Virus record (IMG/VR): IMGVR_UViG_3300037502_001006
Span: 1-27,631 of that record
Source of the DNA: a virus
Strand: one strand, 5' to 3'
DNA length: 27,631 bases
Below are positions 5,709 through 26,711 of this stretch, piece by piece. The notes under the pieces were generated by a model that was not told the DNA's origin, did no database searches, and saw only the letters and a program-made list of their open reading frames with translations. Position numbers and translations under genes: made by a program. The first letter of the stretch is position 1. Each line of letters begins with the position of its first letter.

Positions 5709-5926
5709 CCTACCGACCGACCATGTTTGAAGTCGCAAACGGCGACGCCATTGCCTTGGACATCAGCCTTGACCCTGAAAGCAAGATCGGCCACACGCTG
5801 TTTTTCAAGATCGAGCAGGATGGCCACGAGATCGTGGTCTCGCTTGAGACACTGGAAAACCTACACGAAGCGGCCAAAGAGCTGCTGCGTGGCTACCGTG
5901 AAGTGAGAATGAATCATGACCTTTGA
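5705..5926 (+). CDS. Hypothetical protein
   Basis: A 73-aa protein with ATGA overlap to the previous gene. The sequence alternates strands (MFEVANGDAIALDISL, HTLFFKIEQDGHEIVVSL) and one C-terminal helix (LENLHEAAKELLRGYREV). I do not recognise a family. The coupled position and the ordinary codon usage make it a real gene. It contains no cysteines or membrane segment. Confidence 0.75.
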   Translation: MTYRPTMFEVANGDAIALDISLDPESKIGHTLFFKIEQDGHEIVVSLETLENLHEAAKELLRGYREVRMNHDL

Positions 5927-6107
5927 CGAGTGGTTCCGAACCTACCCGCTGCCTGCCGAGATCGACGGCATGGACGAGACCGACCGCCAGCAGTGGACGT
6001 GGGCCTTGCGCTCGGCTTACAAGACCGGGATGCAAGCTGGCCTGAACAGTTGCCCACCTTGCAATGGCGACTGCAACCAGGGCAGAGACTGCCCCGCACG
6101 CAAATGA
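5916..6107 (+). CDS. Small cysteine-rich phage protein
   Basis: A 63-aa protein overlapping the previous gene by 11 bases. The N-terminal part, MTFDEWFRTYP followed by a Trp-containing helix (QQWTWALRSAYKTGMQAG), and the C-terminal CPPCNGDCNQGRDCPARK with four cysteines are typical of a small phage family seen near RusA and NinB genes. The Cys spacing (C-x2-C-x3-C-x5-C) could bind zinc. Function unknown. It overlaps the following nuclease gene by ATGA. Confidence 0.8.
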   Translation: MTFDEWFRTYPLPAEIDGMDETDRQQWTWALRSAYKTGMQAGLNSCPPCNGDCNQGRDCPARK

Positions 6108-6385
6108 CCACAATCGCAGAACGCAAGCACATGAGCCGCGTGGCCGAGCTTGGTTGCGCTGTGTGCCACCGCCTCGGCTACGGCGCAACCCCGGCCGAGC
6201 TGCACCACCCCAGGCACGGCACCGGCATGGGCCAGCGTGCCAAGCACATGGACGTCATCCCTCTGTGCCCGGAACACCACCGAGGCAACACCGGCGTGCA
6301 TGGCCTTGGCACCAAGGGCTTTGCCAAGCACTACGGATTCACCGAGGCCGACCTGCTGGCCGAAACACTGGAGCGACTGAAATGA
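6104..6385 (+). CDS. Ref-like HNH nuclease (recombination enhancement type)
   Basis: A 93-aa protein with the core of phage P1 Ref: CAVC (Cys18, Cys21), a His pair AELHHPRHGTG (34-35), VIPLCPEHHRGNTGVHG (Cys55, His58, His59, His66) and a closing FAKHYGFTEADLL. P1 Ref is a RecA-dependent HNH nuclease that cuts within D-loops; this protein is about half the length of P1 Ref (186 aa) and keeps only the nuclease domain. It lies among NinB, RusA and other nin-type genes. Zinc ligands and the catalytic His appear complete. RecA dependence is inferred from the family. Confidence 0.85.
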   Translation: MTTIAERKHMSRVAELGCAVCHRLGYGATPAELHHPRHGTGMGQRAKHMDVIPLCPEHHRGNTGVHGLGTKGFAKHYGFTEADLLAETLERLK

Positions 6386-6766: not shown

Positions 6767-7110
6767 TCATCAAGCTGCCATGGCCACCCACCGGCCTGTC
6801 CCCGAACGCCAGAAACCACTGGGCCAAGACCGCTAAGCTCAAAAAGCAATACCGCGAGGCCTGTTTCTGGCAGGCCATGGAGCAAGGCGCACGCCCAATC
6901 CAGTCCGCCAGCCTGCACCTGACCCTGACGTTCTACCCGCCAACCCGCAGGCAGTACGACCTGGACAACGCCCTGGCACGCATGAAAGCCGGTCTTGATG
7001 GCCTGGCCGACGTGCTCAAGGTAGACGACAAACACTGGACGCTGACCATCCGCAAGGGCGAGACGGTCGGCGGATTCGTAGAAGTTCACATCGAAAGGCC
7101 CACAGAATGA
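6763..7110 (+). CDS. rusA: RusA-type Holliday junction resolvase
   Basis: A 115-aa protein of the RusA family. The start IIKLPWPPTGLSPNARNHWA is typical, and the catalytic acids are present: RRQYDLDNALARMKAGLDGL contains Asp66 and Asp68 with Lys75, and VLKVDDKHW supplies Asp88/Asp89. E. coli RusA (120 aa) uses three aspartates and one lysine in this arrangement to cut four-way junctions symmetrically. In phages it resolves recombination and branched replication intermediates before packaging. It lies immediately before the methyltransferase and terminase genes, a common place for RusA. Confidence 0.93.
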   Translation: MIIKLPWPPTGLSPNARNHWAKTAKLKKQYREACFWQAMEQGARPIQSASLHLTLTFYPPTRRQYDLDNALARMKAGLDGLADVLKVDDKHWTLTIRKGETVGGFVEVHIERPTE

Positions 7111-8270
7111 CCCCGCTTACCTTTGAAACATGGCCGATCGAACGGCTGACCGAGTACGCACGCAACCCGCGCAAGAACGACCATGCTGTGGACAAGATCG
7201 CGGCAGCCATCAAGGAGTTCGGATTCCGTGTTCCTGTGGTGGCCAAGTCGGACGGCCTGGTGGTCGATGGCCACCTGAGACTGAAGGCAGCCAAAAAGCT
7301 CGGCATGGCCGAAGTGCCGGTGATTCTGGCCGATGACATGACAGAAGCGCAAATCAAGGCGTTTCGCATCAGTGTCAACCGCATGGCTGAGTTTGCCGAA
7401 TGGGACAATGACCTGCTGGCGCTGGAGTTCGCAGAGCTGACCGACATGGGCTTTGATCTGGACTTGACCGGATTCACGGCAGACGAGATCGACGCACTGA
7501 CGCCTGTGCAGGTTGAGGAAGGCCTGACCGATGAGGATGCCGTGCCTGATGTGCCTGTTGATCCGGTGACACGTGTTGGTGATGTCTGGATTCTTGGGCA
7601 GCATCGTTTGATGTGCGGGAACAGCACCATGCTGCATGACGTTGAAATACTCATGAATGGCACGACACCTGATTGCATCCACACAGATCCACCTTACGGC
7701 ATGAATGCTGTAAGCAAGTCGTCAGTTTTGAAAAAGAACTACAAGCAGGACATCTTGGGCGATGACACGCCAGACGTTGCCAAGGACGCATTTCGATTGA
7801 TCTACGGGATGTGGCCAGATGCCAAGCAAATCTGGTGGGGTGCGAACTATTACTCCTCCGTGTTGCCCGACAGCGAATGCTGGCTGGTCTGGGACAAGGA
7901 CAATGGACAAAGCGACCAGACCGACTGCGAATTGGCCTGGGCAAATTTCCGCAGCGTCGTGCGCCAATTCACCATGGCATCGGAAAAGAAGAACCGCGTC
8001 CACCCGACCCAGAAACCCGTGGCGCTGATGGAGTGGATTATTCGCCGATTTAAGTTGTCTGTGAAAACCATCGCGGACTTCTTTGGTGGGTCTGGATCAA
8101 CCCTGATTGCAGCCGAAAAGCATGGCGTCCAGGCCTTCATCATGGAATTCGATCCGAGGTTTTGCGATGTGATTGTGAAGCGTTGGCAGGATTTCACAGG
8201 CAAAATAGCAACTCACGCAGAAACTGGCGAACCTTTCGCGGAGGTTACAAATGGCAAAGCAAACAGCTGA
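7107..8270 (+). CDS. ParB-domain/DNA methyltransferase fusion
   Basis: A 387-aa two-domain protein. Residues 1 to about 95 form a ParB/Srx-like domain (YARNPRKND near 17-25 and VVDGHLRLKAAKKLG with Gly55-His-Leu-Arg58). After an acidic linker come the methylase motifs: WILGQHRLMCGNS, then TDPPYGM (DPPY at 194-197), HPTQKPVALMEWII, and the SAM-binding FGGSGST (from residue 326). DPPY before FxGxG is the beta-type order of N6-adenine/N4-cytosine methylases. It probably methylates phage DNA; the ParB part may aid DNA binding. It overlaps the small terminase gene by 20 bases. Target site unknown. Confidence 0.9.
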   Translation: MTPLTFETWPIERLTEYARNPRKNDHAVDKIAAAIKEFGFRVPVVAKSDGLVVDGHLRLKAAKKLGMAEVPVILADDMTEAQIKAFRISVNRMAEFAEWDNDLLALEFAELTDMGFDLDLTGFTADEIDALTPVQVEEGLTDEDAVPDVPVDPVTRVGDVWILGQHRLMCGNSTMLHDVEILMNGTTPDCIHTDPPYGMNAVSKSSVLKKNYKQDILGDDTPDVAKDAFRLIYGMWPDAKQIWWGANYYSSVLPDSECWLVWDKDNGQSDQTDCELAWANFRSVVRQFTMASEKKNRVHPTQKPVALMEWIIRRFKLSVKTIADFFGGSGSTLIAAEKHGVQAFIMEFDPRFCDVIVKRWQDFTGKIATHAETGEPFAEVTNGKANS

Positions 8271-14772: not shown

Positions 14773-14945
14773 AGGCCGGTCTGTACGCCAACATTCACGC
14801 CAAGCGTGAGCGCATCGAAAAGCAGAAAGCTGCAGGCAAGACGCCTGAGCTCATGCGCAAGCCTGGAACTAAGGGCGCACCGACCTCTGCAGCATTCAGA
14901 GCCGCGGCGAAAACAGCAAAGCCCATGAAAAGGAAGGCCAAGTGA
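14769..14945 (+). CDS. 58-aa basic phage protein, GLYANIHAKRERI family
   Basis: A 58-aa basic protein beginning MKAGLYANIHAKRERIEKQK, with MRKPGTKGAPTSAAFRAAAKTAK near the end. The pattern GLYANIxAKRxRI ... MRKPGxKGAPT occurs widely as a small open reading frame beside the lysine-rich protein in phage head regions. Function unknown. Both ends are coupled: ATGA at the start and TGATG at the stop. Its conserved linkage with its partner suggests a joint role in the virion or in assembly. Confidence 0.8.
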   Translation: MKAGLYANIHAKRERIEKQKAAGKTPELMRKPGTKGAPTSAAFRAAAKTAKPMKRKAK

Positions 14946-15238
14946 TGCAAGACAACATCCTCATGCCAAAGTACCGCAAGAACAAAAAGCCCGTCAAGGT
15001 ACGCAAGCCATCCCGGCCAATCGACGGCATCAATCACCGACTGCTGCGCGAGCAGGCAGCCGCGGCAGAAGCTCAACCGCAAGTTGTGGAAACAAGCGTG
15101 CCTGACGACAGCGAAGCTCCAACCCGCATTGAGTTGGTCGAGAAGGCCAAAGAACTCGGCCTGACATTCACCAAGCGCACCAGCGATGAAAAGCTGCTGG
15201 CCATGATCACCGAAGCACTCAGCAAGCAGGAGGCATGA
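14945..15238 (+). CDS. Phage protein with C-terminal HeH/LEM-like domain
   Basis: A 97-aa protein. The N-terminal half is basic (PKYRKNKKPVKVRKPSRP) and likely disordered; the C-terminal PTRIELVEKAKELGLTFTKRTSDEKLLAMITEAL looks like a helix-extended-helix (HeH/LEM-like) fold, seen in small proteins near phage head genes. ATG 14945 overlaps the previous stop as TGATG; a GTG at 14942 is possible. An AAGGA lies upstream. It may bind DNA or a head component; no function is known. Confidence 0.75.
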   Translation: MQDNILMPKYRKNKKPVKVRKPSRPIDGINHRLLREQAAAAEAQPQVVETSVPDDSEAPTRIELVEKAKELGLTFTKRTSDEKLLAMITEALSKQEA

Positions 15239-15239
15239 T

Positions 15240-15722
15240 ATGGGTTACAGCAAGCGCCAATTCGTTGCGGCAGCCTTTGAAGAGATCGGCCTTGCGTCCT
15301 ATGTCTTCGACCTGCAACCGGAGCAACTCCAATCCGCCATGCGTCGCATAGATGCCATGATGGCCGACTGGAACGGCAAAGGCATCCGCCTGGGCTACCC
15401 ACTGCCAGGAAGCCCACAAGACAGCGATCTGGACGAGCCGACGCTGGTGCCTGACTGGGCGAATGAGGCGATCATCACGAATGGCGCTGTTCGCATTGCA
15501 CCTGGCTATGGCAAGGTGGTGATGCCTGAAACCAAGGCCGTGGCCAAGGACAGTTACAACACACTGCTGCAGCGTGCCGCCATGCCTCCAGAGCAACAAC
15601 TCCCGGCCACCATGCCTGCTGGCGCTGGCAACAAGCCATGGCGCGTCTACGACAACCCGTTCATCCGTCCACCCGTCAACCCTGTCGACGTTGGCCCAGA
15701 CGGCCCCCTCCAATTCAACTAA
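15240..15722 (+). CDS. P22 gp4-like head completion / tail accessory factor
   Basis: A 160-aa protein, near P22 gp4 (166 aa) in length. The family pattern is clear: SKRQFVAAAFEEIGLASYVFDL, QLQSAMRRIDAMMADWNGKGIRLGYPLP, and DEPTLVPDWANEAIITNGAVRIAPGYGK. P22 gp4 attaches beneath the portal after packaging and makes the platform for gp10. An AGGAGG with 6-base spacing gives a strong start. Order relative to the gp10-like gene is as in P22, apart from two inserted genes. Confidence 0.92.
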   Translation: MGYSKRQFVAAAFEEIGLASYVFDLQPEQLQSAMRRIDAMMADWNGKGIRLGYPLPGSPQDSDLDEPTLVPDWANEAIITNGAVRIAPGYGKVVMPETKAVAKDSYNTLLQRAAMPPEQQLPATMPAGAGNKPWRVYDNPFIRPPVNPVDVGPDGPLQFN

Positions 15723-15731
15723 GGATTCACC

Positions 15732-16187
15732 ATGGCTTACATCAACCAACTGCCGCTGCTTGCATTCCCGTCACCAGGCGACCAGATTCCCGTCTACACC
15801 CCGAACAACGGAGACGCACGACGCCTGCCCATTGGTGCGCTGCTGCAGTATTTCCAGCAAACCTTTGCAGCCCCATCGCTGGCCACCAGCATCGCAACGC
15901 CTGGCACCGGCTTCAACATTACCGTGCCCACTCCGGTAAGCCAGCAGCAGTGGATGCTTCTCCAGCCTGCCGGAACTTTGGCCACTGGCACGATCACACT
16001 GCCGCTAAACACCCAGACGCCTGACGGCACCGAGGTGCTCATTACCACTACACAGCAGATCACCAGCTTCACGCTGGCGCTGAACGGCGCATCTGCAGCC
16101 TATGGCGATCCAGCCACACTGGCCGCTGAAGACTTCTTCCGCATGCGCTTTGTGCAGTCGCTCAACAGCTGGTACAGAATCGCGTAA
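15732..16187 (+). CDS. Probable virion protein, unknown role
   Basis: A 151-aa protein starting MAYINQLPLLAFPSPGDQIPVYTPNNGDARRLPIGALLQYFQ, then a beta-rich part (TGTITLPLNTQTPDGTEVLITTTQQITSFTLALNGA) and an aromatic end (FRMRFVQSLNSWYRIA). The repeated strand patterns and the short final Trp-Tyr segment resemble small decoration or tail-associated proteins that occur between gp4- and gp10-like genes in non-enteric podoviruses. AAGGA lies upstream. I know no assigned function. Confidence 0.7.
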   Translation: MAYINQLPLLAFPSPGDQIPVYTPNNGDARRLPIGALLQYFQQTFAAPSLATSIATPGTGFNITVPTPVSQQQWMLLQPAGTLATGTITLPLNTQTPDGTEVLITTTQQITSFTLALNGASAAYGDPATLAAEDFFRMRFVQSLNSWYRIA

Positions 16188-16189
16188 CC

Positions 16190-16477
16190 ATGGCCACCAA
16201 AGACTCAAGACTGGCACGCGCAGGCGTTGATGGCTACAACAAGCCCAAGCGCACGCCTTCGCACCCAACCAAGTCCCACGTCGTTGTGGCCAAGTCTGGC
16301 GACCAGGTCAAAACGATCCGGTTTGGCCAGCAGGGCGTGTCTGGGTCACCAAAGCGCGAAGGCGAGTCCAAAGCGGACAAGACCCGGCGCGAATCATTCA
16401 AGGCCAGGCACGCAGAGAACATTGCCAAGGGCAAAATGAGCGCAGCGTATTGGGCAGATCGCGTTAAGTGGAAATAA
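16190..16477 (+). CDS. Basic phage protein, IRFGQQGVSGSP family
   Basis: A 95-aa very basic protein with VKTIRFGQQGVSGSP and RESFKARHAENIAKGKMSAA followed by YWADRVKW. This signature is shared by small proteins in many podoviruses and cyanophages, encoded close to head-tail genes. Lys, Arg and His make up a large share, so nucleic-acid binding is likely. There is no known function. It starts 2 bases after the preceding stop and ends 3 bases before the gp10-like gene. Confidence 0.8.
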   Translation: MATKDSRLARAGVDGYNKPKRTPSHPTKSHVVVAKSGDQVKTIRFGQQGVSGSPKREGESKADKTRRESFKARHAENIAKGKMSAAYWADRVKWK

Positions 16478-16480
16478 GCC

Positions 16481-17890
16481 ATGCAAATTCAAATCCTCAA
16501 CGGCATCTACACCGACAACGGCCCAGACCTGCGCACGAGCTACCCGGTGAACATGGTGCCAGTGCCAAAGCAGTCCGGCATCAGTGCCGGTTTTCTGCGT
16601 CCTGGTGACGGCATCGTTGGCAACGGCACCGGCCCAGGCATCGACCGTGGCGGCATCAACTGGAACGGCGTCTGCTACCGCGTCATGGGCACCAAGCTGG
16701 TGACCGTGGCCATCAATGGCGCTGTGACCGTGCTTGGCGACGTTGGCGGCCCCGTCAATACCATGGTGACGCTCGACTACAGCTTTGACCGCTTAGCCAT
16801 TGCGTCTGGCGGCCGCTTGTACTACTGGAACAGCGCACTTGGCCTGGTGCAAGTCACCGACCCTGATCTTGGCATTGTTCTGGATGTGGTGTGGGTGGAT
16901 GGCTACTTCATGACCACAGACGGCACCAGCCTGGTGGTGACCGAGCTGTCCGACCCTACCCAGGTCAACCCGCTGAAGTATGGCTCCAGCGAAGTTGATC
17001 CCGACCCCGTGGTGGCGCTGCTCAAGCTGCGCAACGAGGTTTATGCACTGAACCGCAACACCATCGAGGTGTTCGACAACGTTGGCGGCGAGTTTTTCCC
17101 ATTTCAGCGCATCGATGGCGCACAGGTCACCAAGGGCGTCGTTGGCACGTTTGCCTGCTGCGTTTACGTGGACACCATTGCCTTTTTGGGCAGCGGCCGC
17201 AACGAGGCCCCAGGCATCTACATCGGAGCAAATGCAACTGCTCAAAAAATCAGCACGCAGGAAATCGACGATCTGCTTCTGGAATATACCGAGACGCAAC
17301 TTGCCCAGGTAAAGCTGGAGGCACGCAACGACAAAGCACATGAGCACCTGTATGTGCACCTGCCGGACAAAACGCTGGTCTATGACGCAGCCGCATCGCA
17401 GGAGCTTCAGACTCAGGTCTGGTTCACATTGACAACTTCGACCGTTGGATTCAGCCAGTACCGAGCACGAAACCTTGTCTGGGCCTACGACAAGTGGCTG
17501 ATTGGAGACCCACAGTCCAGCGCCATTGGCTACCTGGTGGACAACATCGGAACGCACTGGGGCCAGATTGTTCGCTGGGAGTTCGGCACCATCATTGTTT
17601 ACAACGAAGGCAATGGCGCAATCTTCAACAAGCTGGAGCTGGTAAGCCTCACAGGCCGCGTGGCCTTGGGTGTTGACCCGATCATCACGACGAGTTATTC
17701 GGTTGACGGAATGGCATGGAGCCAAGACCGCGGTGTGCGAGTTGGCACGACCGGCAACACCACGAAGCGCCTGGCCTGGTTCCAGCAGGGCCACATGCGC
17801 AACTGGCGCATCCAAAGATTTCGTGGTGACAGCCAAGCGCATTTGTCGTTTGCCCGTCTTGAGGCACAACTTGAGCCGCTGGCCTACTGA
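16481..17890 (+). CDS. P22 gp10-like packaged DNA stabilisation protein
   Basis: A 469-aa protein, almost the length of P22 gp10 (472 aa). The N-terminus (GIYTDNGPDLRTSYPVNMVPVPKQSGISAGFLRPGDGI), VLDVVWVDGYFMTTDGTSLVVTELSDPTQVNPLKYGSSEVDPDPVV, and NRNTIEVFDNVGG match the Phage_stabilise family. In P22, six copies form the tail hub that closes the gp4 ring and holds the DNA and the tailspikes. The protein is beta-rich, as expected. Weak ribosome site; start chosen by family N-terminus and a 3-base gap to the previous stop. Confidence 0.93.
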   Translation: MQIQILNGIYTDNGPDLRTSYPVNMVPVPKQSGISAGFLRPGDGIVGNGTGPGIDRGGINWNGVCYRVMGTKLVTVAINGAVTVLGDVGGPVNTMVTLDYSFDRLAIASGGRLYYWNSALGLVQVTDPDLGIVLDVVWVDGYFMTTDGTSLVVTELSDPTQVNPLKYGSSEVDPDPVVALLKLRNEVYALNRNTIEVFDNVGGEFFPFQRIDGAQVTKGVVGTFACCVYVDTIAFLGSGRNEAPGIYIGANATAQKISTQEIDDLLLEYTETQLAQVKLEARNDKAHEHLYVHLPDKTLVYDAAASQELQTQVWFTLTTSTVGFSQYRARNLVWAYDKWLIGDPQSSAIGYLVDNIGTHWGQIVRWEFGTIIVYNEGNGAIFNKLELVSLTGRVALGVDPIITTSYSVDGMAWSQDRGVRVGTTGNTTKRLAWFQQGHMRNWRIQRFRGDSQAHLSFARLEAQLEPLAY

Positions 17891-17892
17891 CC

Positions 17893-18903
17893 ATGGCCAC
17901 GCAAAAACTCAACCTCACCCGCGACCAGCTCGCCACGTTCCTCAAGAACCACGAGCAGATCAGGCAGTTCGAGCGCCTGTTTCAGATCGCTGACGAAGTA
18001 GCGCCTTCCAGCGACACGCAAGGCATCAGCATCGAGGCAAACAATGCAGGCGCAGCAGCAAATGAGGCACTGGCTCAGATCGTAAGCCTGGCCAGAGATG
18101 TGGCCATCAACGCAGGAAACGCAGACCAGAAGGCCGTGCAGGCACTGGACACGCTTGGCCGAATTGCTAATGCTCTGGAGATGCTGTCCACTGCGCCCGT
18201 GATCCAAAACAACAACTCTGTGGTGACGGATTACATCGACTTGCCAGAGATTGGCCCTCATGTGTCGCAAGCTCGACGTGTGCAGTGGAACCAAGACGAC
18301 GGCACGATGGATGTTGGCCTGTACGGCGGCAGCGTGCTGCAGGTCGGCCAGGAGCTGATGTACTACGCCAAGAACACCAGTGGCGCCCCGATTGCCAATG
18401 GTACGCCAGTGATGTTCACCGGCACAGTCGGCGCTTCTGGCAAGCTGACATTTGGCCCGGCCGTGGCTGATGGCTCCGTGCTTGCTGACTACATGATGGG
18501 CGTGGCCACGCAGGACATCGCAGACAACGCCTTCGGCTACGTGACCAGCTTTGGCTTGGTGCGAGGCTTCAACACCACAGGCGCACCGTATGGCGAGGTT
18601 TGGGTAGATGGCGACCTGCTGTATTTCGATCCGGCAACGCCTGGCACATGGACAAACGTCGCACCGCAGGCCCCGAACATCGATGTGCCTGTGGCCGTGG
18701 TAATCAACGCTGGAGGTGGTGGCTCTGGCTCGATCTTTGTGCGCATGACTGTTGCCGAGTCGCTCGCAAGGCTTCAGGACGTCTACATCAACGGCACCGG
18801 AACCCCCAACGACTTTGATGTGCTGCTCTACGATGCCACGCAGTCCCGCTGGGAAAACAAACCCGCATCTGCTGTGCAGGTGCTTGAATGGATGAGCATG
18901 TAA
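17893..18903 (+). CDS. Virion protein in the needle-gene position
   Basis: A 336-aa protein. Residues about 1-105 are helical with a heptad-like Ala-rich stretch (NNAGAAANEALAQIVSLARDVAINAGNADQKAVQALDTL). From about 145 the protein is beta-rich: LMYYAKNTSGAPIANGTPVMFTG, MMGVATQDIADNAFGYVTSFGLVRGFNT and WVDGDLLYFDP, a pattern shared with phage fibre and DUF2190-like decoration proteins. It ends FDVLLYDATQSRWENKPA, common at fibre ends. P22 has needle gp26 at this spot. A helix-then-beta layout resembles a needle or small fibre, but no direct similarity to gp26 is visible. Confidence 0.75.
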   Translation: MATQKLNLTRDQLATFLKNHEQIRQFERLFQIADEVAPSSDTQGISIEANNAGAAANEALAQIVSLARDVAINAGNADQKAVQALDTLGRIANALEMLSTAPVIQNNNSVVTDYIDLPEIGPHVSQARRVQWNQDDGTMDVGLYGGSVLQVGQELMYYAKNTSGAPIANGTPVMFTGTVGASGKLTFGPAVADGSVLADYMMGVATQDIADNAFGYVTSFGLVRGFNTTGAPYGEVWVDGDLLYFDPATPGTWTNVAPQAPNIDVPVAVVINAGGGGSGSIFVRMTVAESLARLQDVYINGTGTPNDFDVLLYDATQSRWENKPASAVQVLEWMSM

Positions 18904-19238
18904 TGGCCTTTCAGAACATCACCCCAACAAAGCTCGGCCAGGCCGCCATCACCACTGGCGTGACCACGCTCTACACTGTACCGGCCAGCACTCGCACGCT
19001 CCTCAAGGAGTTCAGTATCGCCAACACCACAGGCGCAGCCATCAACGTGCGCGTTTTTCTGGTGCCTTCAGCTGGTGCTGCTGGCACTGGTAACGCTTTC
19101 CTGTATGACGTGTCCGTCCCGGCAAACAACGCCCTGCAGTACAACGGCGTGCAAGTCATGAACGCAGGCGAAACAATCCAGGTGCAGGCAGCGTCCGCAG
19201 GCCTGACAATCACAGCAAGCGGCGCAGAGGCCGTCTAA
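18903..19238 (+). CDS. Small beta-rich virion protein, copy 1 of a tandem pair
   Basis: A 111-aa protein starting at the ATG of a TAATG stop-start overlap. The sequence is built of short strands (TLYTVPASTRTLLKEFSIANTTG, INVRVFLVPSAG, FLYDVSVPANNALQY, ETIQVQAASAGLTITASG), suggesting an immunoglobulin- or jelly-roll-like fold. It aligns with the next gene at TT-x-YT, F-S/T-x-x-NT-T/S and the final LTI-T/R-ASG-A/R-E. Similar small proteins decorate phage heads or tail fibres. Role inferred from position. Confidence 0.75.
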   Translation: MAFQNITPTKLGQAAITTGVTTLYTVPASTRTLLKEFSIANTTGAAINVRVFLVPSAGAAGTGNAFLYDVSVPANNALQYNGVQVMNAGETIQVQAASAGLTITASGAEAV

Positions 19239-19247
19239 GGAGAAACC

Positions 19248-19580
19248 ATGGCAGTCACAGCAAAACCCCTCATTGGCTCCAAACAGATGGAGGCGGCGCA
19301 GACCACGCAATACACCGCCACCAACTGCACGGCCATCATCGACAAATTCACAGCCACCAACACCAGTGCGGCCAACGCTGTGATCAGCGTCAACCTGGTG
19401 AGCAGCGGCGGCAGCGCAGGAGCGACCAATTTGATCGTGGACAGCCGCGCAATCGCACCGGACGAGACCTACACCTTCCCCGAGCTGGTTGGCCAAGTGC
19501 TGGCCGCTGGTGGGTTCATCTCGACTACCGGCACGGCGACTGCCCTGACCATCCGCGCCTCTGGCCGTGAAATCACTTAA
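19248..19580 (+). CDS. Small beta-rich virion protein, copy 2 of a tandem pair
   Basis: A 110-aa protein with AAGGAGA 5 bases upstream. It is a diverged paralogue of the preceding gene: TTQYTATNCTAIIDKFTATNTSAA, VISVNLVSSGG, DETYTFPELVG and LTIRASGREI line up with it. The same strand-rich layout is expected. The pair probably arose by tandem duplication inside the block that replaces the P22 needle genes. The two could form hetero-oligomers or occupy different symmetry sites. Confidence 0.75.
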   Translation: MAVTAKPLIGSKQMEAAQTTQYTATNCTAIIDKFTATNTSAANAVISVNLVSSGGSAGATNLIVDSRAIAPDETYTFPELVGQVLAAGGFISTTGTATALTIRASGREIT

Positions 19581-19590
19581 GGAGAACACC

Positions 19591-19989
19591 ATGGAAATGC
19601 CAAAGATCATGATGGCCGGATTCACTGGCCTGCCCGAATCCATGCCGTTTATCACCACGGCCGAGAACAAAAAAAACACCCAGACCGTCATCGACGACTG
19701 GATGCTTGGCCCTGAAAACCCAAGCAACGAGCCAACGGCCAACAAGGTCTACTGGGTTGCACTTGGCAAGGCTATGCAGGTAGATGAGAAAGAGGCCCGT
19801 CGTCGTCGCTGCTCAAACTGCGAGTATTACGACAACAGCACCATGATGCAGGCCAAGATGGAGCGCATCCCGCGCAACGATTGGGACACCGACGCTGGTT
19901 TCCGAGGTTACTGCCGCAAGTTTGACTTCATCTGTCACGACCTTCGTTCTTGCCAAGCGTGGGAAGAGCGCGACTTTGAGATGGATTGA
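19591..19989 (+). CDS. Cysteine-cluster protein, probable metal binding
   Basis: A 132-aa protein. The N-terminal part (MAGFTGLPESMPFITTAENKKNTQTVI, then VYWVALGKAMQVDEKEARRR) leads to CSNCEYY (Cys74, Cys77) and RGYCRKFDFICHDLRSCQAWE (Cys108, Cys115, His116, Cys121). Five Cys and one His in this order suggest a zinc or iron-sulphur site. The CxxCEYF ... GYCxxxxFxCHxxRSCxxW pattern occurs in small proteins encoded in late regions of several environmental podoviruses. AAGGAGA precedes the ATG at 19591. Function unknown; it may be a virion component. Confidence 0.75.
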   Translation: MEMPKIMMAGFTGLPESMPFITTAENKKNTQTVIDDWMLGPENPSNEPTANKVYWVALGKAMQVDEKEARRRRCSNCEYYDNSTMMQAKMERIPRNDWDTDAGFRGYCRKFDFICHDLRSCQAWEERDFEMD

Positions 19990-20067
19990 CAGGCCATGCA
20001 AATGTGGGACAATAACGGCACTGAGCTGTCCGAGCTGCCAGTGGCTCACCCTTCACAGGAGTGCCCC

Positions 20068-20526
20068 ATGAGCAATGCTGCGGTTCAGGAAATTGAGAAG
20101 CAAGTGCCATCAGAGCACCTGCCGATCTATCGCCTGGAGGCCGAACTGCTCAAGTTGCCCCAGGTTGAGATGCCAGTCGATCACGACTTCTGCAATGGCC
20201 TCTACGCTCGCACCATGCACATCCCGGCTGGCACAGTCCTGACCGGCGCAGTGCACAAGGACGAGTCCTTCTTTGTTGTTCGCAAAGGCCACCTTATCGT
20301 CACCACCGACGACGGCTCGGCCAATGTCGGCCCCGGCTTCATGAGCGTCACCAAACCCCACACCAAGCGTGCTGGCGTTGCGCTGACTGACGTTGAAGTG
20401 ACCACGTTCCACGCAAACCCAACAAACGAGACTGACCCGAAGACCATCTGGGACATGTACACCGTTCCGGCACCGGCTTTGGCTTTGGAGGCCGTCCAAC
20501 ACCCGCACCTGGAGGGCGCAAAATGA
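20068..20526 (+). CDS. Cupin-fold protein in the virion operon
   Basis: A 152-aa protein with a single cupin domain. Residues 45-120 show the double-stranded beta-helix pattern: LYARTMHIPAGTVLTGAVH (His63, Glu66 nearby), FFVVRKGHLIVTTDDG, VGPGFMSVTKPHTKRAG (His98) and VEVTTFHANP. His63, Glu66 and His98 could hold a metal. I chose ATG 20068 (CAGGAG, 7-base spacing) over 19996, whose extra 24 residues lack cupin features. It lies just before the gp7-like gene. Cupins include sugar isomerases and dioxygenases but also structural proteins; no reaction can be deduced. Confidence 0.8.
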   Translation: MSNAAVQEIEKQVPSEHLPIYRLEAELLKLPQVEMPVDHDFCNGLYARTMHIPAGTVLTGAVHKDESFFVVRKGHLIVTTDDGSANVGPGFMSVTKPHTKRAGVALTDVEVTTFHANPTNETDPKTIWDMYTVPAPALALEAVQHPHLEGAK

Positions 20527-21170
20527 CTTTTGGATTATCTGGAGCCGCACTGGCTGGCGTTGCCGTTGGCGGCGCGACGCTGGTTTCTGGCTACATGCAA
20601 GGCGAGGCGGCCAAAGACGCAGCCGCGACACAGGCTGGCGCATCACAAGCCGGTATTGAAGAGCAGCGTCGCCAGTTTGACGTTGTGCAAAAACTGCTCG
20701 AGCCGTATGTCACCGGAGGCACTGAGGCATTCAAGCAGCAGCAAGCCCTTGTCGGCGTGCAAGGCCCAGAGGCACAGCGAGCCGCGATCTCGGCCATCGA
20801 GCAAGGCCCGGCATTTCAGGCTTTGACCGAACAAGGCGAAAACGCTCTGCTGCAACGCGCATCTGCCACTGGCGGCCTGCGTGGTGGCAACGTGCAGGCA
20901 GCCCTGGCTCAATTCCGGCCGCAAATTCTCAGCCAACTGATCGAGCAGCAATATGGCCAGCTCGGCGGCCTGGCCAAGTTTGGCCAAGCATCGGCAGCAG
21001 GAACCGGCGCTGCGGCGCAAGAGACTGGCAGCAACATTGCGTCACTTCTTGCAGCGCAGGGCGCGGCAACGGCTGGCGGCCAGATGGCTGCAGGTAAGGC
21101 CTTTGCATCGATCCCGTCTGCCATCTCTGGCGGCCTGGGCATCTTCTCTGGCCTTGGAGGTAAATTCTGA
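20523..21170 (+). CDS. DNA ejection protein, P22 gp7-like
   Basis: A 215-aa protein (P22 gp7 has 229). It begins with a Gly/Ala-rich hydrophobic segment (GLSGAALAGVAVGGATLVSGYMQG), then an Ala/Gln-rich helix (AAKDAAATQAGASQAGIEEQRRQF), and contains PYVTGGTEAFKQQQALVG and FQALTEQGENALLQRASATGGLRGGN, typical of proteins annotated as phage DNA transfer proteins. It ends in another Gly/Ala-rich tail (GGLGIFSGLGGKF). In P22, gp7, gp20 and gp16 leave the particle with the DNA and help it cross the cell envelope. Overlaps the cupin gene by ATGA. Confidence 0.85.
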   Translation: MTFGLSGAALAGVAVGGATLVSGYMQGEAAKDAAATQAGASQAGIEEQRRQFDVVQKLLEPYVTGGTEAFKQQQALVGVQGPEAQRAAISAIEQGPAFQALTEQGENALLQRASATGGLRGGNVQAALAQFRPQILSQLIEQQYGQLGGLAKFGQASAAGTGAAAQETGSNIASLLAAQGAATAGGQMAAGKAFASIPSAISGGLGIFSGLGGKF

Positions 21171-22531: not shown

Positions 22532-24936
22532 TGGCAACCGATTACGCAGCACTCGCACGACAGTTCGGTGGCACGGCCACAAGCCCGGCTGCGCCTGCTC
22601 CGGCTGCCGCACCTGCCGCGGCTCCGGCCGTCGACTATGCGGCTATGGCCAAGCAGTTCGGCGGCCAAGCTGAGCCTCAGAAAATGGGCTTCTTCGAGTC
22701 CGTTGGCGAGATGGTCACTGGCGCACGACGCGCAACGCCTGAAACCCAGGCGCTGCCTGAGTGGACTGGCATGCCAGAGCTGAACCAGTTGAGTGTGGCT
22801 TCTTTGAAGTCTGCCTTGGGCACCTTGGTTTCAAACCCACAGGAGACCGTGCAGATTTTGAAGGCCAACTTCCCAGGCATCGAGACACGCCAAGACGCCA
22901 AAGGCAACTTCATCCTACGCTCGTCTGTCGACCAAAAAGAGTACGCCATCCCACCCGGTTTTTCGGTTGGTGACATCCCGCGTGCTTTGGGTGGCTTGCT
23001 GGCCTTCACTCCTGCCGGACGCGCCACTACGCTTCCTGGTGCTGTGGCCGCTGGCGCAGGCACCCAAGCCGTGATCGAGGCAACGCAAGCTGGCACTGGC
23101 GGACGCTTTGACACTGGCGAAGTCGTCACCGCTGGCGCTGCCGGTGGTGCTGGCCAAGTCGTGCAACGTGCCGTGCAGGCGGCTGCACCTGCCGTAAAAC
23201 GCACCGTCCAGCGTGCCACCGGCCGTCCTGTGACGCCAGCTCCTGTAGCGCCAGCTGCGGCCCCAGCGGCAGCCCCTGCTGCGCGAATTGAGCCAACGCT
23301 TGAGCCAATGCCTGCACCAGCTGCACCGACGGCCACTGCTGGCGCACCGATGGGAACAGCCATGGCACCCGAAGCTGCGCCTGTGGCTCAAGTGGCCACC
23401 GAAGCCTTCGAGGAAGTTGGAGACTTGGTGCGCAAGGCCTCCGGCAGCGGCCCAGGCTCTGCTGCAGCCAAGGCCAAGCTGGCCGACGTTGCCCAGGTAA
23501 ACCCTGAGGCCCGTTCCGCAGCCGAGCGCCTTGGCATGGACTTGCCGTTCGACGTTTTCAGCGACAACCCACAGGTGCGTGCGGCCGTTGGCCTGACCCG
23601 GTCTGTTGCTGGTGGTGAGGCCGAGGCTGCCTGGGTGAACACCGTGCGCACAGCCATCGGTAAGGCTGACGACGTCGTGCAACAGTTCGACGCTGCCTTC
23701 ATTGAGGGCCGTCCAGCTCCTGGCGCAACATCTCAGCGCATCCTGGACAGCTTGAATTCGACACGCACTCAGCTGTTCAACGATGCCGATGTGATCTACA
23801 AACGCGTGGACGCCACGATTCCAAAGACAGCAACCGTCCAGTTTCCTCGCCTGACGCAAACGCTCGACGATGTGCTTGCTGAGGTCGGTGAAAAAGGCTT
23901 GTCTGCACAGGAAAAGAAACTCTACGAGCTGGCAACCGACCCTGACGTGACCTACGGCCGTCTGCTGCGTGAGAAGAACCTGATCGGCCAAGCGATGGCT
24001 GGCAAGGAGTCCCCATACGGCAACATGGCCGCTGGTGACCTCAAACGCCTTTATGGTGCTTTGGCCGAAGACCAGCTGACCAACGTTGGCCAGATTGGTG
24101 GCGATGCACTGCGCCAAGAACTCCGCGCAGCCAACCTGTTGACAGCCAAGCGCAAGGCCTTGGAAAACCGCATCGTCGGTGCTTTTGGCAAGGAAAGCGA
24201 CGGCAGTGTGGCAACTCTCATGCAGTCCGCCATCAAGTCGGCAGCCAAGGGCGACGCGGCTCAGTTCAACAAGCTGATCAAGGTCGTGCCTCCTGAGTTG
24301 CGCAAGGAAACCATCGCCACGGCGCTGGCATCCGTCGCAAGCTCTGGCCGTGCTGCCCAAGAAGGCGCTTTCGGTTTTGCCGAGTTCGCCAAGACCTACC
24401 GCGGCTTGAGAGCCAATCCACCTGTCTACAAGCAGGTGATCGAGGTGCTTGGCAAAGATGCAGACCCAGTGCTGCGCGACCTGTTTGAGATTTCTCGCAG
24501 GATTACCGACGCACGCGCCCAAGTGCTCACCACCGGCAAGGCCAACCAGGCACTGGTAGAAGCTATGAAGGCCGAAGGCTTGATCGGAAAGGTCATGCAA
24601 AGCACGACAGCTCAACGCGTCGTCACAGGTGCAGCAAGTGCAATCCCTGGCGGCGGCTTCGTGGCACCTGACATCGTGCAGTTCATGTCCAAAGGCAACG
24701 CAGATGCAGTGAAAGCTGCTGGAAAGCTGTTCGCCAGCGACGACTTCCAGAAGCTCGCCATCGAGGCCGCGACCAAGACTGAGCCAAGCCAGGCCGCTAT
24801 CCGTCGCACTGCTGCAAGCAAGGCATTTGCCGATTTCGCAAACGCAGCAAAGCTGCCACAATCCCTGGACGCGAGAGTGCAGTGGCTGCAATCCGCTGTC
24901 CAGACAGGACGTCAATTTGATCAGGAGAACCAGTAA
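22531..24936 (+). CDS. DNA ejection protein, P22 gp16-like position
   Basis: An 801-aa protein, larger than P22 gp16 (609 aa), coupled by a 1-base overlap. It opens with a repeat, TDYAALARQFGG (residues 3-14) and VDYAAMAKQFGG (34-45), separated by a Pro/Ala linker. Residues about 90-150 hold LSVASLKSALGTLVSNPQ and a beta strand pair; about 150-230 a Gly/Ala-rich possible membrane-active region (LPGAVAAGAGTQAVIEATQ); about 232-290 a second Pro/Ala linker; then a long helical domain to the end. No lysozyme or transglycosylase motif was found. It probably enters the cell with the DNA. Confidence 0.82.
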   Translation: MATDYAALARQFGGTATSPAAPAPAAAPAAAPAVDYAAMAKQFGGQAEPQKMGFFESVGEMVTGARRATPETQALPEWTGMPELNQLSVASLKSALGTLVSNPQETVQILKANFPGIETRQDAKGNFILRSSVDQKEYAIPPGFSVGDIPRALGGLLAFTPAGRATTLPGAVAAGAGTQAVIEATQAGTGGRFDTGEVVTAGAAGGAGQVVQRAVQAAAPAVKRTVQRATGRPVTPAPVAPAAAPAAAPAARIEPTLEPMPAPAAPTATAGAPMGTAMAPEAAPVAQVATEAFEEVGDLVRKASGSGPGSAAAKAKLADVAQVNPEARSAAERLGMDLPFDVFSDNPQVRAAVGLTRSVAGGEAEAAWVNTVRTAIGKADDVVQQFDAAFIEGRPAPGATSQRILDSLNSTRTQLFNDADVIYKRVDATIPKTATVQFPRLTQTLDDVLAEVGEKGLSAQEKKLYELATDPDVTYGRLLREKNLIGQAMAGKESPYGNMAAGDLKRLYGALAEDQLTNVGQIGGDALRQELRAANLLTAKRKALENRIVGAFGKESDGSVATLMQSAIKSAAKGDAAQFNKLIKVVPPELRKETIATALASVASSGRAAQEGAFGFAEFAKTYRGLRANPPVYKQVIEVLGKDADPVLRDLFEISRRITDARAQVLTTGKANQALVEAMKAEGLIGKVMQSTTAQRVVTGAASAIPGGGFVAPDIVQFMSKGNADAVKAAGKLFASDDFQKLAIEAATKTEPSQAAIRRTAASKAFADFANAAKLPQSLDARVQWLQSAVQTGRQFDQENQ

Positions 24937-26711
24937 TGTCCGCACTTTCGATTCAACCTACATATCCGATCTTCACGGACATCGATGGCCAGCCTCTTGA
25001 GGCAGGTTATGTCTGGATTGGCCAGGCAAACCTTGACCCGCAGGTCAACCCGATCAATGTCTATTGGGACGCAGCGCTGACAATCTCAGCACCTCAACCA
25101 ATCCGCACGCTAGGTGGTTATCCATCTCGCAACGGTACGCCTGCTCGCCTGTACGTGAACAGCGACTACAGCATCAGAGTGCAGAACCGCAACGGCAGTA
25201 TCGTGTATAGCGCACCTGTTGCCACTGAACGATACAGCGCCGAATTGATTGGTTTTACAGGTTTCAAAGGTCAATCAGGAACGATTGAAGACTTGGCTGG
25301 AAACGATGGTGCTGATTGGATTGGTTTTGAAGCAGACAGCGCATCTGCTGTACCACGATCCATGCAGGACAAGGCAAGAGATGTGGTCAGTGCGTTTGAT
25401 TTCATTCCTGCCGCACAAATTGCGTTTATTGAGGCGCATAACTCGGGGGCACAAGATGCGTCAGTTGTCACCGCGGCGCTTCAGGCTGCACTTGAAACTG
25501 GCAAAGTGGTATTCATGCCTGTTGGCACATACCGAACGAATGCGCCACTGATCATCAGCAAGTCATGCCGAGGAATTCTTGGTGAGATTTTTGGCGACGG
25601 TAATGGCACTCGTATTGACTATCACGGCAACGATGCAGCCATCAAATTGTATGACGGCACCAGCGGAACTCGGCGCGTGACGCAAGCACGGGTTGAGAAC
25701 ATTGCCATCCGAGTGCAGAACGCAGGCGTCAATGGCATTGACTTCACCGACGCCAGCTATTGCACATTCCGTGACTTGTTTATCCGCCTGTTGAACTCCA
25801 ACCAAGCTGGTATCTACGGTAAAGGAAACGGACTTGGGTCTTCTCCCTACTACAACATTTTTGACGGAGTAAAAATCTTTGGTAACGCTGACAACGTAAC
25901 CAACCCAGGTCAGCGCGGCTACTACTTCCAAGGTGAACTGGCGGGTGGGTTTGGATCAAATGGCCCCAACGCAAACATGATTTCCAATGGCGGCCAGATT
26001 GGTGGCGTCAGTCACGGCGTTCACATGGAATCTGGAACAGGAAACGTGTTTTCCAACATGATTATGGAAAGCATCGCGGAATACGCTTATCGAATCGGCA
26101 ATGCGTTGTCTGCTACACCTGGCCGCGCCGATCAAAACAGCGTTGTCAATCATTGGATGGAAGGTACGTCCACTTGTGTGTTTGCACGCTTCGAGGGTGA
26201 TGCAGCAAGCAATTCGCTGACGAACTACAGCATCAACTCGGTCAGCCCCATTGCGTTTGACAACCAGTCATCTTCGGAAAACAACTACTGCAAGCCCGGT
26301 GGAAATTTCTATGTCGTTTCTTTCTACGGACAGAACATTCCAGCCAGTGCAACAACGCCACTTGCCCCAACAAACGCGTCATACCCTGCTGGTGGTGGTG
26401 TGATTCCTCCATTCTTGGGGATGGTTCCTTACTTGATGAAAGTCTCCGTGCACAACTTTGCATCCGGTGGATTGGGTAGCGGTGTTGTACAGGCGTACCG
26501 AAGCGGCACACCAAATCCAAACTTGGCTTTTACTGTCAACAATGCAAACAGGTTTGGAGGAACGGCAATTCAACGAACTCCAAACACATCGCTTGCTTAC
26601 AACACATTTGACGGAACCATCAACAGTCAAATTGAAGTCGCTGTCACAACAGATGGCTCTTGGAACCAGACGACAAGCGATATTGAAGTTCAAGTCATCT
26701 TCTTCGGGTAA
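24936..26711 (+). CDS. Tailspike with P22 head-binding domain
   Basis: A 591-aa tailspike. Residues 1 to about 105 form the P22 tailspike head-binding domain (PTYPIFTDIDGQPLEAGYVWIG, NPINVYWDAALTISAPQPIRT, ARLYVNSDYSIRVQNRNG). A short linker then leads to a right-handed beta-helix typical of pectate-lyase-like spikes: AALETGKVVFMPVGTYRTNAPL, GEIFGDGNGTRIDYHG, FRDLFIRLLNSNQAGIYG. The end is strand-rich. P22 tailspikes bind and cut O-antigen; the receptor here is unknown and I cannot name catalytic residues. The DNA becomes more AT-rich after about 25240, which marks an exchangeable receptor-binding module. Confidence 0.9.
   Translation: MSALSIQPTYPIFTDIDGQPLEAGYVWIGQANLDPQVNPINVYWDAALTISAPQPIRTLGGYPSRNGTPARLYVNSDYSIRVQNRNGSIVYSAPVATERYSAELIGFTGFKGQSGTIEDLAGNDGADWIGFEADSASAVPRSMQDKARDVVSAFDFIPAAQIAFIEAHNSGAQDASVVTAALQAALETGKVVFMPVGTYRTNAPLIISKSCRGILGEIFGDGNGTRIDYHGNDAAIKLYDGTSGTRRVTQARVENIAIRVQNAGVNGIDFTDASYCTFRDLFIRLLNSNQAGIYGKGNGLGSSPYYNIFDGVKIFGNADNVTNPGQRGYYFQGELAGGFGSNGPNANMISNGGQIGGVSHGVHMESGTGNVFSNMIMESIAEYAYRIGNALSATPGRADQNSVVNHWMEGTSTCVFARFEGDAASNSLTNYSINSVSPIAFDNQSSSENNYCKPGGNFYVVSFYGQNIPASATTPLAPTNASYPAGGGVIPPFLGMVPYLMKVSVHNFASGGLGSGVVQAYRSGTPNPNLAFTVNNANRFGGTAIQRTPNTSLAYNTFDGTINSQIEVAVTTDGSWNQTTSDIEVQVIFFG

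Follow-up and report, generated by a model that had tools for sequence, protein, structure and literature searches.

Which protein closes the tail of a P22-type phage when the needle gene gp26 is missing from its usual place behind the gene of the gp10 nozzle? This question is raised by the window, by which we mean the whole stretch of DNA analysed here, a complete IMG/VR record of 27,631 bases that is possibly a partial genome. A preliminary description had proposed that a block of five genes replaces the P22 needle genes at this place. Here we argue that the replacement is narrower, and that the first of the five, P1, is probably the needle-equivalent of the lineage, its helical N-domain closing the gp10 nozzle in the place of gp26 and the product of the following gene, P2, serving as its tip in trans.

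A P22-type backbone with five genes between gp10 and gp7

The structural cluster of the window is P22-type and comprises the terminase, portal, scaffold, coat, gp4, gp10, gp7, gp20-like and gp16-like genes and a gene-9-type tailspike. The flanks of the block, earlier read as those of P22, hold by Pfam match for the portal (PF16510, E 2e-159), the coat (PF11651, E 1e-87), gp4 (PF11650, E 2e-14), gp10 and gp7; scaffold, gp20 and gp16 are assigned by position only. The window gp10, which is presumably the docking site of P1, furthermore matches the solved structures of Sf6 gp8 and P22 gp10. The coordinates of the five ORFs between gp10 and gp7, named P1 to P5 here, were confirmed, and the features discussed below are as follows.

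16481-17890, + strand: gp10-type nozzle / head closure protein Hc3 (phrog_578 E 8e-94; PF11134 E 2e-35)
17893-18903, + strand: P1, 336 aa, the ORF directly after gp10
17893-18243, + strand: P1 residues 1-117, constant N-domain, predicted helical (LTRDQLATFLKNHEQIRQFERLF...), with 13 invariant residues
18244-18762, + strand: P1 residues 118-290, beta shaft module with a predicted capsid-decoration (gpD/SHP) fold
18763-18903, + strand: P1 residues 291-336, linker and C-terminal peptide VQVLEWMSM, an end type limited to P2-bearing loci
18903-19238, + strand: P2, 111 aa, predicted single jelly roll, its start overlapping the P1 stop
19248-19580, + strand: P3, 110 aa, P2 paralogue
19567-19989, + strand: P4, 140 aa, five-cysteine protein (CX2C...CX6CX5CX2W)
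19996-20526, + strand: P5, 176 aa, cupin (PF07883 E 1e-4; phrog_12032 E 2e-30)
20523-21170, + strand: gp7-type DNA ejection protein (PF25688 E 8e-9; phrog_598 E 3e-34)
24936-26711, + strand: gene-9-type tailspike/fibre, head-binding N-domain of P22-like type (hhalign against P22 gp9, E 7e-5)

Elsewhere in the window, three ORFs of 98, 151 and 95 aa that have no P22 counterpart lie between coat and gp10 (14942-16477). The 151-aa ORF has a weak match to phrog_11518 (tail fibre), is present in nearly all relatives that cover the coat-gp10 region and reaches 414 aa in some of them, while the 95-aa ORF is phrog_7595. The two halves of a further ORF at 7107-8270 match ParB-like and DNA methyltransferase families (phrog_498 E 2e-106).

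Gene order in the needle slot

The gene order of the window block recurs in about 120 metagenomic loci, a number obtained from two scans of viral contigs in which some contigs are counted twice. P22, Sf6, IME_EC2, Lumpael and the Shewanella phage ZP9 have gp26 directly behind gp10, then a single gene and gp7, the needles of the last three phages being matched by a gp26 profile with 97-99% probability. In the window and its relatives it is P1 that directly follows gp10 and lies before gp7, a position that it shares with the gp26 family. In ZP9, gp26 is genuine and bears a knob of the Sf6 type (phrog_1030 E 5e-80), and what separates it from gp7 is a P5-family cupin (phrog_12032 E 8e-30; hhalign against P5 99%). 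In the Vibrio phages 234P9, 1.183.O and 1.061.O, gp10 is followed by the gene of a coil-like protein of medium size, a cupin gene and gp7, and MW202475 has nothing but a divergent P1 between gp10 and gp7. Together, these gene orders indicate that P1 occupies the needle slot and P5 the slot of gp14, and that P2 to P4 have been added. Beyond the enterobacteria, the needle slot of P22-type phages evidently varies. As a separate observation, other P22-type phages carry a second class of N-domain (PPRV..DP.TG..SR.WY.FF) in their needle slot, at 5919-6239 of locus L239, 5422-5763 of L237, 4564-6447 of L055 and 5194-5898 of L238.

As such, the proposal that all five genes replace the needle genes stands for P1, and for P2 when P1 is short, as the exchanged appendage, and finds no support for P3, P4 and P5. 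Both P3 and P4 are retained with every P1 type, P5 is found beside a genuine gp26 in ZP9, and MW202475 demonstrates that P1 can separate gp10 from gp7 without P2 to P5. The characterization of these smaller proteins, on the other hand, was accurate. The small beta protein is indeed duplicated, P2 and P3 being paralogues (hhalign probability 96.8, E 2e-10), and the cysteine-cluster protein and the cupin were recovered as P4 and P5. In P4, with its frame read from 19585, cysteines 76, 79, 110, 117 and 123 and a tryptophan are invariant in 68/68 relatives. It has the four-cysteine cluster motif of HiPIP-like Fe-S proteins, and its counterpart in MW202867 is annotated as HiPIP-like; judged by these residues, P4 appears to be like a HiPIP-type iron-sulphur protein, located inside a virion gene cluster. 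The P5 cupin precedes the ejection gene in the Vibrio and Shewanella phages as well, and the start of gp7 overlaps the end of P5, with a 4-nt overlap in 31/33 cupin-bearing loci. The paper on Shewanella phage X14 holds no virion data for the cupin. Neither P4 and P5 nor other small ORFs proved related to gp14 by hhalign.

Absence of gp26

The preliminary description had named a gp26 homologue elsewhere in the genome as a finding that would speak against replacement. Because the window may be a partial genome, the absence of gp26 rests on its relatives, for which we used 21 metagenomic sequences of 30-39 kb and the circular complete genome MW202867. A profile of the P22 and Sf6 needles and eight further ones found no gp26 homologue in these 22 long relatives, and in the same search it recovered the controls P22 (E 4e-139) and Sf6 (E 1e-98). 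The P22 needle gene is thus gone, as had been claimed, and a differently built protein stands in its place. P1 has no match in the PHROG needle family (phrog_1219/phrog_1030), and comparison of its N-domain with gp26 and with the SU10 needle yielded an hhalign probability of about 0.1%. P2, P3 and two of the three small ORFs before gp10 were likewise compared with gp26 by hhalign profile comparison, and none is related to it.

A constant N-terminal domain with exchanged ends

P1 consists of a constant N-domain followed by an exchangeable C-terminal tip. Over about 100 aa, the 13 invariant residues of the N-domain are kept across every P1 length type; its start lies -3 to +3 nt from the end of gp10 in 81/84 loci, and it is single-copy in the 4/4 P1-bearing records tested. 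AF2 predicts helices at residues 10-14, 20-35, 43-72 and 77-100, at low confidence throughout the helical part (pLDDT about 40-70), and the model is good in the beta module only. Within the helices 43-72 and 77-100, which are predicted at that low confidence, some registers are strongly hydrophobic and consist mostly of Ala. The N-domain is presumably a trimeric anchor and plug that binds the virion. The helical part itself also varies, with a deletion of 25 residues in locus L047 and extra helical repeats in L082. In locus L055, the same beta module is joined to a different N-domain and gp10 is only 27% identical, a pairing that is to be expected if the N-domain is the part that fits gp10. 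We obtained no convincing fold match for the N-domain; since the fold lists were taken up by the beta module, this does not constitute evidence of a new fold. Searches by sequence for relatives of solved structure returned chance matches only for P1, its N-domain and the C1q-type domain, for P2 and P3, and for P5 and the N-terminal part of the tailspike. Among sequenced bacterial genomes, the N-domain was found on one short contig of a Rhodobacteraceae MAG, which is too little to name a host.

Behind this domain, the length of P1 depends on what has been attached. The shortest types, of 123-137 aa, are almost N-domain alone and miss the shaft module; those of 332-338 aa carry the beta module, and those of 353-382 aa small extensions. 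In about 30 relatives, P1 reaches about 430 aa and bears a C1q/BclA-like knob fused to the shaft, the knob in locus L073 matching BclA_C with E 4.5e-5; the BclA_C matches of these C1q-type relatives lie below the Pfam cut-off. Finally, types of 626-939 aa are long fibres, some of which have an S74 chaperone; a Peptidase_S74 domain is absent from the window P1, which ends at residue 336. In locus L147, P1 is split into two ORFs, probably by a frameshift or assembly error.

The long types raise the question of whether P1 could be a second receptor-binding tail fibre on gp10, in six copies or one, and not a plug, the nozzle then closing itself as in T7-like phages or being closed by another small protein. 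The long P1 variants that have S74 chaperones are tail fibres of a typical kind, the Foldseek BFVD matches of P1 are tail-fibre proteins, and the nozzle of SU10 bears short tail fibres as well as a needle (PMC9509320). However, a 137-aa P1 that is nearly N-domain alone persists in the lineage, which fits a plug and hardly a receptor fibre in the absence of P2. Moreover, the slot of P1 is that of the needle in each gp26-bearing P22-type phage that we read, and MW202475 has no other needle candidate between gp10 and gp7. A tailspike is, in addition, always encoded separately: its N-domain is present in 25/25 relatives regardless of P1 type, while its C-terminus is exchanged between them. With its P22-like head-binding domain, this tailspike accounts for the peripheral appendage, which makes P1 a second, different appendage. 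We therefore regard a receptor fibre without plugging function as unlikely, although the tail may yet close in another way, the second option of the preliminary description. Some relatives have an open frame of less than 200 aa at the tailspike position, in parallel to P1.

The fold of the shaft, as predicted, allows for another explanation, in which P1 forms a head fibre or decorates the capsid, with P2 and P3 as additional decoration proteins. From about residue 150 to 291, the model matches the decoration proteins of HFTV1 (VIA Z 11.2) and Pam3 (10.4), followed by phi29 gp12 (7.8) and the phi29 head fibre gp8.5 (6.9), and the module has a weak Phage_cement_2 match under the Pfam cut-off. 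The best matches of residues 152-291 are thus capsid decoration proteins and the base of the phi29 head fibre, and P2 resembles the trimeric cement protein of KHP40. Conversely, phi29 gp8.5, Phage_cement_2 and gpD/SHP share their fold with P1 residues 150-291 only. Where phi29 gp8.5 and the decoration proteins bind the capsid, the module in P1 is inserted behind an unrelated N-domain and may be absent. It is dispensable and itself swapped, the helical N-domain being the constant part, which argues against binding of P1 to a capsid lattice. The same module is common to many phage tail fibres and a fibritin, and the P1 gene sits in the tail cluster, after gp10. A role in capsid decoration is, as such, highly improbable.

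Linkage of P2 to the end of P1

P2 most likely starts at the ATG at 18903 that overlaps the P1 stop, rather than at 18888 (116 aa). Its AF2 model is a single jelly roll (pLDDT 86.5), with fold matches to the KHP40 trimeric cement protein (Z 9.9), the HFTV1 turret (9.4) and the C1q head (7.7); this predicted fold puts P2 in one class with these three and with nucleoplasmin. P2 accompanies a W[LM]SM end of P1 in 47/47 distinct loci and is present in 0/39 other loci. On a tree of 73 gp10 sequences, which was used to map switches of P1 end and P2, the end type of P1 changes 22 times, and P2 switches together with it in 15/15 independent supported pairs (p 6e-5). This exchange takes place between close relatives. 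Locus L073 is 87% identical in DNA to the window over gp10 and 88-96% over P5 to gp16, yet it has a C1q-type P1 and no P2, a natural exchange within one backbone. Similarly, L028 and L035, which are 86-97% identical to the window over coat, gp4 and gp10, carry a long-fibre P1 without P2. The shaft module can also be swapped on its own: in L063 and L069 it is replaced by another beta module, and P2 is still 90% identical. In locus L140, P2 is split into two ORFs, probably by a frameshift or assembly error.

The jelly roll of P2 and its linkage to the P1 end suggest that a tip that is not fused to P1 is encoded beside it as a jelly-roll protein, and P2 is presumed to be this separate tip, or knob. 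We must however take into account that P1 and P2 adjoin, so that their joint exchange could partly be a matter of mechanical linkage, and that the WMSM codons may also serve as a translation signal for P2. Fibre genes are often followed by a chaperone gene. P2 could thus be an assembly chaperone of the short P1, or merely a linked neighbour: it overlaps the P1 stop codon, and the two genes are exchanged as neighbours. That P2 is missing exactly where P1 bears another end speaks against this, as do the independent retention of its paralogue P3 and a predicted jelly roll of the kind that serves in knobs, cements and turrets. On balance we consider such a role for P2 somewhat unlikely, although less so than the alternatives for P1 itself.

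A model for the tail tip

The needle role of P1 is argued from its position and from the logic of an anchor with exchangeable tips, which is familiar from P22-type needles: in these, the end that binds the virion is conserved and the tips are unrelated to one another, that of Sf6 being a TNF-like knob (PMC3741392). P22 gp26 is, like P1, encoded directly after gp10, with a constant, virion-proximal N-terminal part and a type-specific tip (PMC3741392). It differs in that no sequence relation to P1 is detectable, and in its shaft, which has 11-16 heptads as opposed to the short helical N-domain and the decoration-fold beta module of P1. The TNF-like knob of the Sf6/HS1 needle resembles the probable C1q/TNF-class jelly-roll tip fused to P1 in about 30 relatives, although their sequences show no recognisable homology; in the window, the separate gene P2 would supply the knob if our inference holds. 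MW202867, a phage from Manatee Spring, has gp10, a C1q-type P1, P3, the cysteine protein, a P5-like gene and gp7, a shared order that differs from the window in the lack of P2 and in a P1 that is 36% identical. Outside this group, the gp18 needle gene of the Kuravirus SU10 follows the nozzle gene, as P1 does, and encodes a coiled coil with an unrelated C-terminal beta tip (PMC9509320). Its sequence is unrelated to P1, its tip is a beta-prism, and the passages of the SU10 report consulted describe no separate tip gene. The best reading is that the needle of this lineage follows the same logic as gp26, an N-terminal anchor with an interchangeable tip, without sequence relation. In an incomplete search of the open-access literature, we found no description of this needle-slot family.

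If P1 is the needle-equivalent, it would be a central tail-tip fibre, probably trimeric, that takes over from P22 gp26: its helical N-domain would sit in the gp10 nozzle and shut the channel. Its outer part would act as a cassette that holds nothing, a decoration-fold shaft, a C1q/TNF-class knob on a shaft, or an S74-type long fibre. In the window, the shaft would end in the W-M-S-M peptide, and the knob would most likely be supplied in trans by binding of P2, translated from the next gene that overlaps P1. Once the tip touches the cell surface, P1 would be released and the channel opened, as has been proposed for gp26. P3 and P4 would be accessory, and P5 would be the protein of the gp14 slot, tied to the ejection genes. 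More specifically, and tentatively, it is quite possible that the window encodes a two-gene needle, with P1 as plug and shaft and P2 as a receptor-contacting knob docked via the conserved C-terminal peptide of P1, without recognisable relation to gp26.

Significance

The role of the needle tip is unsettled even in P22 and Sf6, and the reason for the differing tip types is unknown (PMC3741392). This lineage provides a natural experiment, in which closely related virion backbones carry bare, knobbed, long-fibre or apparently split tips, and with such backbones the question of tip function would become directly testable. If the needle is indeed made by two genes, a tip could be swapped as a domain fused to P1 or as a subunit of its own, and this arrangement would have arisen in a large, mostly aquatic P22-type lineage. 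P1 and P2 are candidates for host-range determinants in these uncultured and mostly aquatic phages, which form a widespread group.
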